A DNA stretch of 36,908 nt. It comes from an uncultured Verrucomicrobiales bacterium (GTDB taxonomy: Bacteria; Verrucomicrobiota; Verrucomicrobiia; Limisphaerales; Palsa-1400). Shown one piece after another: positions 1 through 13,759 of the stretch. The notes beneath the pieces are model-generated. The model was given only the letters and a program-made list of their open reading frames with translations. It was not told where the DNA came from and searched no databases. The DNA lies in assembly GCA_903898185.1 (NCBI GenBank), contig CAIUEN010000451.1, forward strand, positions 1 to 36,908, in the 5' to 3' direction. Both the position numbers and the translations under genes were made by a program. The number at the start of each line of letters is the position of its first letter. Position 1 is the stretch's first letter.

Positions 1-87
1 GCCGCAATCTCCGCCACGGATTACGCAGAAAGGAAACCTGCTGGACAATTGACTCTTGGTGCAGACCTTTTCAAAAAATCCCTATGT

Positions 88-1146
88 TTACGGGGATGCC
101 TGCAATCCTAGACCCTCCAGTAGCGAAAGTCGGGCTAGCAATGTCTTGCCGCTGGAAGTCGGCATTTGCACCACAACTGCGCGGAGCGCAAGGCTCATTA
201 CCGAATGCACTGTATCCTGCTGAGGCGGCAGCAGTTCAAAAAGAGGCCGCCAATCGGCCTCGTCGCGGGTCAATGCCTGTTTAAATTCGGTGATACGATG
301 GTTGTAGGCGGCCAGTTGGTGCCAGAGCGTCGTTTCGATGAGCCGCCTGAGCGCAGCGCGCAACCAACGCAACAACACCGCCCATTCGACAATGCCGCCG
401 ACATCGGCGGCTTCAATGGCATGTCTCATGTGCAACGACACATCGCCTAGTGCGTCGGCAGGCTTGCCATGTCCAGTGAACTCCGCCGCAGATTCAACGG
501 CCTTAGCGAAATGGTAAAATGTGATGAGCTCTAATGCGGCAGCTTGCCGGATACCATTGTGGGCTTCAAGGTAAGCGGCCTCGTTATTGGCTTGATCGCG
601 ACGTAAGTCTGCCACGAAATTTGCAACCGCGCGAAGATCAGACCATCCTTGTTTGCGCACCAACCGCAGAAAGGCATCACTGGTGGAGAAGAAAAGGCGC
701 CCAGCCCAGTCGTTTGGCTCACTGGCTTGGCCATCCAACGGCCATGTCGCATTTTTGATCCACCTCCGCCAGTCATCCACACGGCTTGCCAAGATGGCGA
801 CGCAGGCAGCAGTCAATGCACGTTTGACTGATTCTATTCCTCCACTGGTGTCGCCTAATGCACGATGAAATTCGAAGGCATTAGAACATAGCTCTCGAAG
901 AGTCTTGCCTTCGGTTTCTTCTAAACGAGCAACATCATTCTCACCGCAAAGTGTAAGCGCGGCCAGTTCGCACGCTTCTAAATATTGTGGCCACATGGCA
1001 CGCTCGGCGGCATCTATTGAGGCAGACGCTTCCGGCACAACCTTGCCCAGAACCTCTGCCCCAAAACAGTTTCGCGCTTGCCTAGCTGCAAGGGCGATAC
1101 ACTCCATACCCCCGACTCCAGCAACGATCTCCTTTGCTGTAATCAT
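88..1146 (-). pseudogene. DEAD/DEAH-type helicase, N-terminal part only (truncated after Walker A)
   Basis: Minus ORF ends ...AVVVQMPTSSGKTLLARLSLLEGLGLQASP*. Walker A is present, then a stop, and no helicase motif is visible in any frame of the remaining 87 nt. The likely start at 1146 overlaps the upstream stop (ATGA) with a GGAGGG SD. Confidence 0.6.
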
Positions 1147-1958
1147 ATCCGCCCTCCTTTCGCCAAGACAAGCGATGGCCATTCAGTTTTTTCAAACGGG
1201 AGGTAGAACCCCAAAAGCCATAGCTCCTGCTTCGCAACGCTTCCATCCAAAGCCACATGCGCACCAGCCAAATCAGATTCACTTTCAGCACGCTTGCCGC
1301 TGACGAGGCAGCCAACGATCAAACAATCGCCGCTATCACCGTATTGTTTAAACGCCGAGGCGAATCGGGAATCGCCTTTTGTTTCCCGCATTTCTCGGAA
1401 ACCAAGCCAAGCGATAAGGGTCTGGCGGCGCGAAGGTTCTGTGAGAAGACGGCGCAATTGGCCGGTCAATGTCTCCTGACCTGCGTTTCCATCCACGCCA
1501 GAAATGACCGCCGGTGGTGATTTCTTCTGCCCCGAGGATTTCACTTCCCCAAAGGCAAAACGGATAGGCTTGTGAGCAGGCAGGTGATAGCCCGGCAAAT
1601 CAGGCCCGGTTGCGTGTCCTTGCTTCTCGCGTTGATCGCGCGAAGTCGGCCATGGAAAAAGGCAGTCGAAGTGATCTTCTAGCACCGTTTCCACAAACGC
1701 CTCACCCACTTCCCAATCGCGTGGCGGAACGCTCTGGGCAGCCTCGGCACGCAAATGTGTGAGAGAAAAGCCTGTGTCCGGCATTCGATCAATATAGCTC
1801 CGAAGAAACTCCGCGCCATCTCCCTCCTTTAGTCTTCCAGCAACGCGTCCCTCGAAATATAAGCGGCAAGTTTCCGCATCACGCCAAGCATAACCATGAC
1901 TCCTAATGCGGTTGGAACCAGTCCGAACATACACTTGTGCGAACGGGGCGTTCATCAA
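1143..1958 (-). CDS. Predicted PD-(D/E)xK-type nuclease / defence-associated protein
   Basis: 271 aa; GPDLPGY...IRFAFGEVKSSGQ resembles a D...ExK nuclease core. Overlaps the neighbouring genes by 4 nt on both sides. Confidence 0.5.
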   Translation of the reverse strand: MMNAPFAQVYVRTGSNRIRSHGYAWRDAETCRLYFEGRVAGRLKEGDGAEFLRSYIDRMPDTGFSLTHLRAEAAQSVPPRDWEVGEAFVETVLEDHFDCLFPWPTSRDQREKQGHATGPDLPGYHLPAHKPIRFAFGEVKSSGQKKSPPAVISGVDGNAGQETLTGQLRRLLTEPSRRQTLIAWLGFREMRETKGDSRFASAFKQYGDSGDCLIVGCLVSGKRAESESDLAGAHVALDGSVAKQELWLLGFYLPFEKTEWPSLVLAKGGRI

Positions 1959-3859
1959 TTTAGATATGAATCAAGTTTTCGCAAAAGATGGGCATATTTG
2001 TCGGCGTTGAGTTCAAGAATATTGGTCGAGATCCAATCCCAACGCTGGACCTCCTGGACCATTCCGGACAAGTTGCTTAGGGGCTGCGGAATCGCAACGA
2101 GCCAATTAAGACGTGCTGCAAGCTCTGGATGACGAGCGAGTTTTAGCGCGTCATCGCGCTCATCCTCTGTTTCGCAGAGAGGGATGACGATGGTTCCGTC
2201 CGATGTGGTTGTTGTGTTCGCAATAACGGATTCCATCTCTTGGATGGAACAATAGCGCACGTCGTAATGGCGGAGGTTGCCGGTTTTTATGTAATGACGG
2301 CGAGCCACGATTGGTCGCGTTTCGAGGTAGTCCTTGATCAGGCTTGCCATTCGTTGTGTTGTGACCGTGGCACGGCGAGCCTCCTCATACGCCTTCTCAA
2401 GATCAACCGAAGTGTGTGGCCACAGGCACAGCCCTCGCGCCCGGCCTCGGTCATATAGAACACGTTTGCCAGAACGCAGTTTTTCCAGCGTGGCACGAAT
2501 CGTCTTTTGGTCATCACCGTCCGATCCCGCCAATGCGCAAACAATGGCATCCTCTGTGGAAACCAAGTCGTTGTCGTCGAGCAGATTTAGAATACCAACG
2601 GTCTTCAGAACCTTGACCTTTTCCGGGTTTTCCGTAGCGAAGCTTTCGACCAGCGAGTCGATCAGGTTCCAATGGCTCCGATAACTCTGCCCAGCCAGGC
2701 GGTGGCCGAGATTGGTGCGAACGTAATCGTAGAAATGGTGAAGCCGGTATGGTTCGGCTTCGGTGAGAGGTTTGGACGCAAAAGCCATCAGACCAAACGG
2801 CTCATTTGAAAGCAGAAAACTAAAGAGAGAACGCTCATTCTGCCCAAAGCGACGGAGAATACGAATGAGGACCGGAAGGACCGTCGGGTGCAACGGATAA
2901 AGCGACGGGGCCAAATCCAGCAGATTCGCAACGGGTGCAGACCCGAACCAACCGAGAGAAACAGTCTGCTTCATCGCCTGTTTCAAGGCGGCCTCTTGGG
3001 ATCTGGGCAACAGGTCTCGATTTACATTCAGCGCCGAACCGATGAGCGTGGCAATCTGTTCAACGGGCTGATTAAAAATGATTTCATCAAAGCGTCCCGC
3101 CACCTTCTCCCATTCGCGCTGGGCCGACTGGTTCAAAAAGTCGGCGTAGGCGTTGAACCCCTGATGAAGCAAGCAAACCACGAACAATGGCTCTTTCCCG
3201 CTGCGGGAAGCCGTCTCAGCTAGGCGTTGAAGCAGAAAAATATCCTGGCGCTGGGGGTGGAGCGAGGCAAACTCCAAGAACTTTCCAAGCTCGTCCATGA
3301 TCAACATCAGCCCTTTGCCTTTTCCATCAGCGATAAGGCGTGAGTTGACTTCGACTATGGTTTCCAGGACCTGGTCATCGGTGGGTTCTTGGTCACCGTC
3401 CAACAGGCGTTGCACTCCAACGGCGATTGGAGCTTTTTGACCACGTTCATATTTTGCAATCAGGGCTCGACGGAGCGATTTAAGGATGGAAGTGCCCAAC
3501 GGTTCACGGGAACAGGTCACCAACACGGGGAGGAAATTCGGATTCTTGGCACCGAATTTGTGAAATTCGAGTGATGACCACAGGCGTGAAGGGAATGCTT
3601 GGTTGTTGCCAGCAAACCAGTGCGCGAGGAGAAGCGCAAAGCTGGATTTGCCCGATCCATAATCTCCCGTCATTCGCCAAGCGCGCTGGCCCGAGCCGGG
3701 GTGAAGTCCTCCCGCAAGTCGTTCCAGGCAGGTCCGGGTGAAATCGGTTAAGACATAGCCCGTGAATGCGGTGGGGTCTTCGAAATCGCGGTCGAGCTGG
3801 GTCGAACGAAAATATCTGGTTTTAACATCGAACAAGTCGGAGATGCGCTTCTCACCCAT
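1955..3859 (-). CDS. Large P-loop ATPase (BrxC/defence-ATPase-like)
   Basis: 634 aa; Walker A GDYGSGKSS and Walker B-like KGLMLIMDELGKFLE. Confidence 0.65.
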   Translation of the reverse strand: MGEKRISDLFDVKTRYFRSTQLDRDFEDPTAFTGYVLTDFTRTCLERLAGGLHPGSGQRAWRMTGDYGSGKSSFALLLAHWFAGNNQAFPSRLWSSLEFHKFGAKNPNFLPVLVTCSREPLGTSILKSLRRALIAKYERGQKAPIAVGVQRLLDGDQEPTDDQVLETIVEVNSRLIADGKGKGLMLIMDELGKFLEFASLHPQRQDIFLLQRLAETASRSGKEPLFVVCLLHQGFNAYADFLNQSAQREWEKVAGRFDEIIFNQPVEQIATLIGSALNVNRDLLPRSQEAALKQAMKQTVSLGWFGSAPVANLLDLAPSLYPLHPTVLPVLIRILRRFGQNERSLFSFLLSNEPFGLMAFASKPLTEAEPYRLHHFYDYVRTNLGHRLAGQSYRSHWNLIDSLVESFATENPEKVKVLKTVGILNLLDDNDLVSTEDAIVCALAGSDGDDQKTIRATLEKLRSGKRVLYDRGRARGLCLWPHTSVDLEKAYEEARRATVTTQRMASLIKDYLETRPIVARRHYIKTGNLRHYDVRYCSIQEMESVIANTTTTSDGTIVIPLCETEDERDDALKLARHPELAARLNWLVAIPQPLSNLSGMVQEVQRWDWISTNILELNADKYAHLLRKLDSYLN

Positions 3860-4793
3860 AAACGACCTCCGTGGAATAGACTTTCTTTAGCAAATCAATG
3901 CCGTCCCGCTTGCCCGTGCGCTGCACTTGTTGGATGTTCGCGCCTTCTGCGTACCTCATAAATCCCCGCGTTTGTTTTTCGAGAAGCTCCAGGCGGGACC
4001 GAATGTCCTCATCCGGTAGTTTGAAAATCTGGCCTGGGCTTCCGTGACCATGGGCGATTTGCTGAAATGTGATCGTCCCGTCATTCGCATGGCGTTTCTG
4101 CCAGAAATCGTTCAGGCAATAAAGAAACAGCTCCGGAGTGATTTCAGGTTTTTCTTCTCGGCGAAATATGTAGATTGGCTCGCGCCGCCCTGCAGACTGA
4201 TCTAGTTCGCGGTCTCCAATTTTGAGGATAAGTTCCAATTCCACGAGAGGACAATCGAGATTATCCTCCTGCACCTCGCCCTTGCGTCCGCGAGTTGGGA
4301 CATATGTGTGCAGGAATGTTTCAAAATGCTGTTCCAACGTGACGGGGGAGTGTTTGGTGTCCTGTTTTGCCGCCTCCTGCTGCAACGCCTTCATAACCCT
4401 GGTCTGCGTCATTTCTGGATCTTGCCACCGATTCAGCAGGAAATCCCAAGCGAATAACGGGTTTTCGATATTCGTCGAGAGATTCCAGTGGATCAACCAA
4501 AGCGTTCGGACATCTTCGAGAAAAGGGTCGAGATTGCCGTCGCCAAGGATTTGATGCCCAATTTCAGTGGGCTCGTGGCCGCCGCCTGCCACCGCCGCCT
4601 GGATCATGCCGGACGCGTGTGCCCAAAACTTGATGGAGCGCACCATGTTTTTTCCGACGCCCAATTCCACCATCGCGTGTTGTTCCTCCGCAAATAGTTT
4701 TGGATCATGGCTGAGGCCCTGCACGGCCTTGGGCAACCATGTGTAACGGCAGGGGAAAGATTCATGCCCCGCGATTCGATAATTGTTAGCCAC
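3852..4793 (-). CDS. DUF4007 family protein
   Basis: 313 aa; (I)AGHESFPCRYTWLPKAVQGL...AMVELGVGKNMVRSIKFWAHASG matches the DUF4007 signature; GTG start; overlaps the ATPase gene. Confidence 0.75.
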   Translation of the reverse strand: MANNYRIAGHESFPCRYTWLPKAVQGLSHDPKLFAEEQHAMVELGVGKNMVRSIKFWAHASGMIQAAVAGGGHEPTEIGHQILGDGNLDPFLEDVRTLWLIHWNLSTNIENPLFAWDFLLNRWQDPEMTQTRVMKALQQEAAKQDTKHSPVTLEQHFETFLHTYVPTRGRKGEVQEDNLDCPLVELELILKIGDRELDQSAGRREPIYIFRREEKPEITPELFLYCLNDFWQKRHANDGTITFQQIAHGHGSPGQIFKLPDEDIRSRLELLEKQTRGFMRYAEGANIQQVQRTGKRDGIDLLKKVYSTEVVYG

Positions 4794-4867
4794 TTCCAGA
4801 CGGTTTTGACGCGCATAGGGTTGCCGGTTTCTCGGAGATTGTAAAGGGGATCGTTTGGCGATGCATC

Positions 4868-5257
4868 GAAATCGCCAATCTTCAAAACGATTGCAATAAG
4901 CCGTTTTAGCTTCCGGTGGTAGAAAAGAAGGTCGAGGTAATAATCACGTCCGTCGATCTGCACACGACGGAGATGGGACCAACTCAATTTTGCACACACT
5001 GCGTGCAAAATCTTCGGGTCCGGGAAAGTCTCCGCAAAACGGGCCATGTTCGCCAAGTTTCGCTCTGAAAATCCGCGCCCAAACTCGAGTGCCAATTTTC
5101 CACTCAGCGTGTGGAAAATCTTTTCGCCGTAACCGGCCCGTTGCTCTTTGAGGATGTCCATGCGAATACGCGCGCCGATTTGCCAGTAGAGAATTACCAG
5201 AGCGGAATTGATGTTATGCGCAACTGTCCCGCGCGTGGCAAGAATCAGTGTGCGCAT
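4868..5257 (-). pseudogene. DUF1016 / YhcG-type PD-(D/E)xK nuclease remnant with internal deletion
   Basis: N-part INSALVILYWQIGARIRMDILKEQRAGYGEKIFHTLSGKLALEFGRGFSERNLANMARFAETFPD...LSWSH joins directly to IDGRDYYLDLLFYHRKLKRLIAIVLKIGDF. The central region is missing and the Glu expected in AIELK is Val. Confidence 0.75.
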
Positions 5258-10013: not shown

Positions 10014-11462
10014 GTGACAATTCAAAAGAGACTGATTTGGAGTTTGATGGCCGGAATGCTTGTCGTGCTTCCGGCGGTGCAGTTTTTCCAGCACTTGCAT
10101 AATAAGAGTTCCACGCGTGAGGCGCAGAGGGAGAACGTGAGCTTGATGCAGGAGCGGGAACTTCAAAGCGTTCAAAACTTTCATCAGGCGCTCAACGTGG
10201 CGATATCCAGGGCGCTGGCTCGGGGCGACATGCAAATCTATGAAGAAATGATCCATCTTCAGCGCAAGGTGCCCGGATTCGCGGAGTTTTCTTTGTATAG
10301 CAAATCGGGAATAATCACCTATTCCTCAGAGAAGAAATTGCTCAACAAAGCGATCGACCCAGCCATGCTTCAGAGGATGATGGGCCAGACCAACCTGGTG
10401 ATGTTCGCAAAAACCAACCAAATCGAAATATTTGATCCACTGATTGCCACTGCCCAATGTTTGGAATGCCATGACGACTTCAAGAATGAGTCGTTTTGCG
10501 GCATCAGCTATTTCCGGATGTCCAACAATGTGGCGATGCAGGCCGAACGGCAGATCAATGAAGTTGCCGCCAAGGCTGTCCGACAGGAGGTGGGCGATTC
10601 GATGATCGCGTTTGTGGCGCAGGTCGTGTTTTTGGGGCTCTTGATCTTGCTGGTGGCGCGTTCAATCACAAAAACGGTGTGGAGTGTTGTCAAAAACATC
10701 AAGGAGCGCACCGATGATTTGGAAAAGACCGCCGAGAACCTGGTTTCAGCGAGCCAATCCATGGCTGAAGGCGCCAGTAAACAGGCCGCGTCGGTTGAGG
10801 AAACAAGTTCAGCGCTCGAGGAAGTGTCGAGCATGAGCAAGCGAACGGCCAACAACGCTCACGATGCCAAAGGATTGGCAAGCCAGGCTCACGCCGCAGC
10901 CAGTTCTGGAATTGAGCAGATGGATCGCATGGGCCGCGCGATGGGGGATATAAAGGCTTCCACCGGTGACATCCAAAAAATCATCAAAACCATCGATGAA
11001 ATTGCATTCCAGACCAATATTCTCGCCTTGAATGCGGCGGTTGAAGCCGCGCGCTTTGGTCAGGCTGGCGCGGGATTCGCCGTTGTTGCGGGTGAAGTGC
11101 GGTCACTGGCGCAACGTTCGGTCGTTTCCGCTCGAGAGACCTCGTCGCAGATCGAAGCTGCGATCGCCAAGACCGTAATGGGAGTTCAGATCAGTCGGGA
11201 GGTATCTGAGAATCTGCGGGAGATAGTGGAAAAAGTGGAGAAGGTGGACCAACTGATCGCCGAGACGGCTGTTGGCAGCAACGAGCAAAGTCAGGGTATC
11301 GCCCAAGTCAACACTGCTGTATCGGAAATCGACAAGGTGACGCAGGCGAATGCGGCCAGCGCCGAGGAAAGCGCCAGTGCTGCAGCCGAACTTAACGGTC
11401 AGGCGAACGCATTGAAAGTGGCACTCAAGGATCTGATGAGCTTGGTGGAACAGGAAAGTTGA
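10014..11462 (+). CDS. Methyl-accepting chemotaxis protein with CxxCH-containing sensor domain
   Basis: ORF track starts at 9963; a GTG at 10014 preceded by AGAAAGG is plausible. TM segment, periplasmic region with CLECH, second TM, and the MCP hairpin IDEIAFQTNILALNAAVEAARFGQAGAGFAVVAGEVRSLAQRS. Confidence 0.93.
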   Translation: MTIQKRLIWSLMAGMLVVLPAVQFFQHLHNKSSTREAQRENVSLMQERELQSVQNFHQALNVAISRALARGDMQIYEEMIHLQRKVPGFAEFSLYSKSGIITYSSEKKLLNKAIDPAMLQRMMGQTNLVMFAKTNQIEIFDPLIATAQCLECHDDFKNESFCGISYFRMSNNVAMQAERQINEVAAKAVRQEVGDSMIAFVAQVVFLGLLILLVARSITKTVWSVVKNIKERTDDLEKTAENLVSASQSMAEGASKQAASVEETSSALEEVSSMSKRTANNAHDAKGLASQAHAAASSGIEQMDRMGRAMGDIKASTGDIQKIIKTIDEIAFQTNILALNAAVEAARFGQAGAGFAVVAGEVRSLAQRSVVSARETSSQIEAAIAKTVMGVQISREVSENLREIVEKVEKVDQLIAETAVGSNEQSQGIAQVNTAVSEIDKVTQANAASAEESASAAAELNGQANALKVALKDLMSLVEQES

Positions 11463-12655: not shown

Positions 12656-13759
12656 TTACACATTAAACCGAAATAGAATCACATCGCCATCTTTCACCAC
12701 GTATTCTTTTCCTTCCATCCGATACAGTCCCTTTTCGCGGGCGGCGGCAATGGAACCACAGCGTACCAAGTCCTCGTAAGCGACGGTTTCAGCTTTGATA
12801 AAGCCGCGTTCAAAATCAGAATGAATGACCCCTGCCGCTTTGGGAGCGGTGTCGCCAGCATGGATGGTCCATGCGCGGGTTTCTTTTTCGCCGGCGGTCA
12901 AGTACGTTCGTAATCCAAGCAGATGATAAGCGCTTTTGATCAAGTTGCCCACCCCAGACTCTTCCACTCCCAGTTCCTTAAGGAACTGACGAGCCTCTTC
13001 CGGAGGTAGATCGATCAGGTCGCTTTCGATCTGGGCGCTGATCACCACCGTTTCGCAGGCAATATGCTTTAGCGCATAATCCCGGACTTGAGCGACGAAA
13101 GGATTGGAATCGGCAGTGGCCAGATCGGACTCTTTGACGTTCGCAGCAAAAATCACCGGTTTATCGGTCAGCAGGCAGAAGCTTTTCACAACGAGCTTCT
13201 CTTCTGGCGTTAACCCAAGCGTGATGGCCGGTTTTCCGGTATTGAAATGGGCTTGGAGCTTCTTGAGCACTTCAGCTTCGGCAATCGCAGACTTGTCTCC
13301 CCGCTTGGCGTCTTTGGCCACCCGATCAAGTCGCTTCTGAACGGTTTCGAGATCCGCCAGCGCCAGTTCGGTCAAAATCGTTTCGATGTCGCGGATAGGG
13401 TCAATATTGCCCGCCACATGATGAATGTCCGGATCTTCAAAACACCGCACCACTTGGACAATGGCATCAACTTCCCGGATGTGGGTCAAAAACTTGTTGC
13501 CCAAGCCCTCGCCTTGGGATGCTCCCTTGACCAGGCCGGCAATATCAACAAACTCGATCGCTGTCGGAATGGTGGTGGCGCTTTTCGCGATTTTCGCAAG
13601 AACTTCCAAACGGCTGTCCGGCACCAAAACCATGCCCACGTTGGGATCAATGGTGCAAAAGGGGTAATTAGCGGCTTCGGCCTTGCGTGTGCGGGTCACC
13701 GCATTGAAGAGAGTGCTCTTACCAACATTGGGCAAACCGACGATTCCAGCTTTGAGCAT
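12656..13759 (-). CDS. ychF: Redox-regulated ATPase YchF
   Basis: [42 protein letters not shown]...; C-terminal TGS-like [19 protein letters not shown]. Confidence 0.97.

Follow-up and report, generated by a model that had tools for sequence, protein, structure and literature searches.

A four-gene defence-like run in an uncultured Verrucomicrobiales bacterium: a probable mosaic of Ssp remnants and an interrupted Hachiman-like gene pair

Closest described systems

In Ssp defence, SspB binds DNA and SspC hydrolyses ATP; placing sulfur in the DNA backbone takes these two proteins plus SspD and a cysteine desulfurase, and DNA that lacks the mark is damaged by SspFGH. The genes studied here lie at one end of the window, by which we mean the whole 36,908-nucleotide stretch of DNA analysed, and read on the minus strand as sspB, sspC, M23A and a helicase. 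Like SspBCD-SspFGH (PMC8092258), the window encodes clear homologues of SspB and of the N-terminal half of SspC, an SspH remnant persists in the genome, and the sister loci are Ssp clusters; unlike it, the genome yields neither SspD nor the C-terminal half of SspC, its HNH protein is short and its SspH is a fragment. PDC-M23, a PADLOC candidate whose name we did not find in use in a literature search, agrees with genes 3 and 4 in both genes, their order and their overlap, but here the pair sits inside an Ssp relic and its helicase is interrupted by an insertion element. Hachiman HamA-HamB (PMC12278908) is likewise a nuclease-helicase pair, and the helicase of the window genome matches both HamB models and the solved HamB 8vx9, although the window's M23A falls short of the HamA model and the pair is divergent, with a putative function.

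DndCDEA-PbeABCD also ties four restriction genes to phosphorothioation, and pbeA and pbeC occur on another contig of the window genome (C473); PbeA is an HKD nuclease-helicase and PbeC a CxC ABC ATPase (PMC10853773). Gene content excludes PbeABCD as the identity of the quartet, no Pbe protein matching any of its members. Type 4 BREX (PMC12839542) shares DUF4007 and a BrxC/SspC-like ATPase. It too is excluded, since the window's ATPase is a far closer match to SspC models than to BrxC, and the BREX likeness proposed in an earlier, sequence-only reading of this DNA does not stand as an identity; none of PglZ, BrxL and BrxP is among the genes examined at the locus. SspFGH is excluded for genes 3 and 4, having a Walker-A protein and an FtsK-like protein instead.

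The four genes of the window

The sequence-only reading described four frames in tight succession, and the minus-strand open reading frames bear this out: sspB and sspC overlap by 8 nt, sspC and M23A by 1-4 nt depending on the start chosen, and M23A and the helicase by 4 nt if the helicase begins at the ATG near 1146. The gene content it listed is recovered in part, as a DUF4007 protein, a Walker-A ATPase, a nuclease with the signature GPD...GEVK and the N-terminus of an SF2 helicase are all present, but the helicase is one third of a gene and the ATPase is truncated. The PADLOC check that it proposed labels genes 1 to 4 as SspB, SspC, PDC-M23A and PDC-M23B (Table 1). The suspected link to phosphorothioation holds for genes 1 and 2, and for genes 3 and 4 the defence content is right; the suggestion that the run belongs to a known system is right for each half, an Ssp relic and PDC-M23, but not for the four as one system. 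The segments of the locus cannot be told apart by GC or GC3. No SspA cysteine desulfurase adjoins sspB. Its upstream neighbour is a pseudogene, as had been noticed, and Pfam identifies it as DUF1016/YhcG; its N-terminal domain runs, across an internal deletion, into a short stretch of the C-terminal one, and the C-terminus is missing.

Table 1. Coordinates of the features at the locus, with the HNH-S24 genes of two sister loci
Feature	Position	Strand	Evidence or remark
Insertion-element end, multi-copy	1..137	.	Terminal repeat CAGTAGCGAAAGTCGGGC at 118-135, TA target duplication; contig breaks inside element
HamB-like SF2 helicase (PDC-M23B), N-terminal ~347 residues	88..1146	-	PDLC04531 positions 38-338 (of 1060)
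PDC-M23A, PD-(D/E)XK-type nuclease, distantly HamA-like	1143..1955	-	PADLOC E 7e-54
sspC stub	1955..3859	-	PADLOC SspC E 1e-227, profile positions 1-602 of 1053
sspB (DUF4007), full length	3852..4793	-	Pfam DUF4007 E 1e-71; PADLOC SspB E 1e-110; SspB 6juf E 1e-22
DUF1016/YhcG nuclease pseudogene	4794..5257	-	Pfam DUF1016_N 3-100/137, then YhcG_C 50-85/157
HNH-S24 (HNH nuclease + S24/LexA-like peptidase)	L106:7260-9104 (G629); L108:1138-2910 (G413)		Between sspC and sspD

SspB aligns with its relatives over the entire length. The sspC stub encodes an ORC/Cdc6-like AAA+ ATPase up to residue ~624, with a Walker-A motif (GDYGSGKS) at residue 65 and the AAA+ motifs retained, followed by ~10 unrelated codons and a stop. 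When aligned with full-length relatives, homology stops at ELNADKYA, inside the continuous conserved block ELNxDxYA-REEVSRQ (the hyphen marks the break) and not at an alignment gap. Missing at the locus is the 3' ~45% of the gene (~624 residues against ~1150), and a 502-aa C-terminal SspC query, run without a positive control, had no match in the genome itself. The ten best-scoring SspC relatives among 390 genomes of the phylum have open frames of 1022-1457 aa and called genes of 1015-1273 aa, and SspD adjoins nearly all of them. Of the plasmid SspC loci that were read, ten hold a gene about 1110-1230 codons long. Most of these phylum and plasmid relatives have an SspD annotated or detected nearby; in two of the ten plasmid loci (Leptolyngbya and Pseudanabaena ABRG5-3), the stretch that was read carries no SspD annotation. 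The exception in length is Synechocystis plasmid pSYSM (L078:3881-9220), which has an SspC-like gene of 563 codons and no SspD annotated in the stretch; this gene adjoins a reverse-strand LAGLIDADG gene, and a member of the HNH family of the window genome follows.

The M23A-M23B pair and its insertion element

Gene 4 continues beyond the window. Only the N-terminal third of the helicase lies within it, and the remaining ~730 residues resume on contig C205 (C205:120-2305, L007), covering positions 326-1059 of PDLC04531. As the first 137 nucleotides of the window are the end of an element, the final 17 codons and the stop of the helicase frame are foreign, the residues after GKTLLA (window 88-137) being element sequence. 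An identical 120-nt arm of the element ends contigs C122 and C215, and the opposite arm occurs at the start of C205 and at ends of C366, C334, C280 and C165; both arms finish in CAGTAGCGAAAGTCGGGC, with a TA after it wherever an end was inspected. When a script removed the element together with one copy of the TA, the two sides joined into a continuous frame of 1076 aa (...GKTLLAQFRIIQ...), which places the site at a TA within the helicase gene, just past motif I (GKT). The TA target duplication and the short terminal repeats suggest an IS630/Tc1-type element or a non-autonomous derivative; no transposase was seen. M23A is directly followed by M23B, with the gene order and overlap of PDC-M23, but the helicase is not intact, as the element splits it after motif I. 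Because of this split, M23AB very probably does not work in the population that was sequenced.

The active-site residues of M23A are invariant across the family alignment. A model of HamA, a DUF1837 nuclease, is matched by 3 of 10 family members (best E 6.9e-7), the window's own M23A not among them, and M23A found no match in PDB sequences; an AlphaFold (AF2) model built from 4 sequences reached a pLDDT of 38 and was set aside. The helicase matches models of HamB, a Ski2-like helicase, at E 6e-42, its part on C205 matches 8vx9 (PDB) at E 7e-19, and the C-terminal part of M23B matches its PADLOC model at E 3e-229. Given the HamB matches of the helicase and the HamA matches within the M23A family, the likeliest guess at how an intact pair would act is a Hachiman-like mode, and PDC-M23 is probably a divergent Hachiman-type pair. 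By analogy with HamAB, intact M23AB would work alone, the helicase surveying or unwinding aberrant DNA and releasing the nuclease.

Members of the M23A family occur in 7 of 390 phylum genomes, 6 of 385 class genomes and 3 of 347 genomes of the class of G128, sets that overlap and of which the first two count the window genome itself. Others turned up in a Synergistaceae genome, in a Brocadia genome and on a single viral contig; searches of plasmids and phages returned no match. For the weakest hit (G525, E 2.7e-4), phmmer gave no confirmation that it is an M23A. At seven loci (G171, G039, G048, G128, G374, G601 and the Synergistaceae locus), a helicase 1073-1104 aa long comes after M23A. On the viral contig the pair is partial, with an incomplete helicase, and SspC was not found there; in G386, M23A is present and no helicase was detected. 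Relatives of SspB, SspC or HNH were detected beside none of the other M23A loci. No second instance of the whole quartet turned up among about 1,000 sampled genomes, whether in the 390 phylum genomes, the 385 class genomes or the class of G128, nor in plasmids or phages. The sequence-only reading had raised an orphan or undescribed four-gene combination, to be judged by conserved co-occurrence. The neighbourhood comparison it called for does not support this proposal: no other M23A locus found has SspB/SspC beside it, close SspB/SspC relatives lie in Ssp modules, nearly all of which have a full-length SspC and an SspD gene, and the absence of conserved co-occurrence is the outcome that the reading itself had named as a refutation. 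In Candidatus Brocadia pituitae (L046:10001-11500), the M23A frame is cut short and transposase-like genes come directly after it; in G601 (L089:8214-13613), the pair is directly followed by a gene that resembles a cytosine methyltransferase by its N-terminal motif.

Ssp remnants, sister loci and alternative readings

The count of four genes is correct for the window, but a fifth follows the helicase on C205, a 350-aa HNH_4 protein. Its closest relatives found, at the loci of G629 and G413, are 590-614 aa long and carry a C-terminal S24 peptidase-like domain. The protein of the window genome ends where the S24 part would start and no other frame continues it; the 3' 40% of the gene is gone at this locus. 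These two genomes and G537 also hold the nearest SspC relatives in the class search (63% identity for G629, 60% for G537 and 63-69% over pieces for G413). G537 has sspB, a 1152-aa sspC and sspD. G413 has sspC pieces, one of them ending at residue 327, the HNH-S24 gene, a complete sspD (82% identical to that of G537 over 265 aa), part of sspG, and sspH. G629 has sspB, an sspC that breaks off at residue 628, HNH-S24, an sspD with an internal deletion that leaves only residues 15-41 and 205-283, sspF, sspG and sspH. In the reverse-complement coordinates of its locus (L106), the sspC cut falls at 10112 and the deletion-bearing sspD at 13331-13646, and SspFGH stay open; these would be expected to be toxic if active. 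The Ssp order in the nearest relatives is thus sspB-sspC-HNH/S24-sspD-(F)GH. Since the HNH gene lies beside sspC and sspD in G629 and G413, it belongs to the Ssp cluster, and M23A-M23B accordingly sits between two Ssp pieces in the window genome.

The Ssp pieces found in that genome are sspB, the sspC stub, the HNH stub and the end of sspH, in genome-wide searches that covered the C-terminal half of SspC, SspD and SspH. SspF, SspG and SspH are not downstream at the locus; the last 395 residues of SspH, 76% identical to those of G413, occur on C296 only, adjoining unrelated sequence. SspD was not found in the genome, where the four PAPS-reductase matches are other genes, two in a sulfate-assimilation cluster (C54) and two DndC. 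With SspD not found, half of SspC missing, HNH short and SspH a fragment, this cannot be a working Ssp locus. The observation that no modification gene is present holds locally; elsewhere, C473 carries dndA, dndB, dndC, dndD and dndE, with pbeA and pbeC close by and the SspA/DndA-type desulfurase located in this dnd locus, and C375 carries a second dndC-dndD pair. These genes make phosphorothioate modification by Dnd enzymes likely in the organism, but they do not rescue the Ssp relic. Also on C473 (L019:2493-2810), dndC and dndD are separated by a 105-aa DUF1016 N-terminal fragment that overlaps its neighbours by 4 nt; DUF1016 remnants thus occur in one genome both at the dnd locus and at the flank of the Ssp relic.

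We consider it highly probable that the quartet is not a four-gene machine but a mosaic, in which the remains of an eroded Ssp locus stand together with a Hachiman-like pair that has itself been disrupted. The ancestor would have been a phosphorothioation locus of the type sspB-sspC-HNH/S24-sspD-(sspF)-sspG-sspH. The 3' part of sspC and sspD would have been lost, with M23AB entering the gap, in either order, so that a two-gene Hachiman-like module (M23A + M23B) now fills the space between the sspC and HNH stubs; the HNH gene would also have been cut short, and the element would have inserted in the helicase last. Some features sit awkwardly with this mosaic. No frameshift occurs in sspB, the stub of sspC, M23A or the joined helicase, the ATGA-type overlaps appear operon-like, and the sspC of G629 is cut within 5 residues of the window's break, which is improbable for independent random breaks. 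A rival reading is a new hybrid system, in which SspB and the short SspC would form a DNA-scanning, ATP-driven module that delivers M23A/M23B to foreign DNA, reading Dnd phosphorothioate marks made elsewhere in the genome. The tight overlaps and intact frames, the AAA+ motifs kept in the short SspC, the modification genes elsewhere and a second genome with a short SspC (G629) fit this idea. Against it stand the absence of recurrence in every set searched, the self-sufficiency of the M23AB pair elsewhere, and an SspC cut in mid-block beside a disrupted helicase, and we regard it as distinctly improbable. Very improbable indeed is the narrower version, in which the lineage keeps a short SspC without SspD and uses it with SspB as a scanning front end for a Hachiman-like nuclease-helicase; were it true, the locus would be a hybrid of phosphorothioation and Hachiman defence.

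The shared truncation could also mean that a short SspC is the ancestral functional form in the class, common to G629, with M23AB as a replacement effector. The breaks at residues 624 and 628 speak for it, but the tails beyond the break are unrelated between the window and G629, and G537, almost as close, has a full-length SspC with SspD. In the SspC tree the window, G629 and G537 form a trio in which the window and G629 are not resolved as sisters, and the internal deletion in the SspD of G629 together with the end of the G413 SspC at 327 resembles decay. This, too, seems distinctly unlikely. A false join at the sspC/M23A junction, bringing together two genomic places or organisms, is the least probable account, and highly unlikely. 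The assembly is a draft of 535 contigs with repeats at contig ends; even so, beyond M23AB, on C205, the HNH gene of the ancestral Ssp cluster follows the helicase without a break, so that both flanks of the pair are Ssp. Moreover, the sole multi-copy sequence in the four-gene region, by a search of the genome against itself, is the insertion-element end, and GC is uniform.

The mosaic removes a false candidate system and illustrates that what is annotated as a defence operon of four genes can consist of a relic with an insert. For Ssp loci of the class, it offers worked evidence of decay by loss of the modification half. The HNH-S24 fusion of the sister loci is possibly an undescribed Ssp component, and single-domain HNH relatives occur near SspA, SspB or SspC on Hymenobacter, Leptolyngbya, Geminocystis and Synechocystis plasmids.
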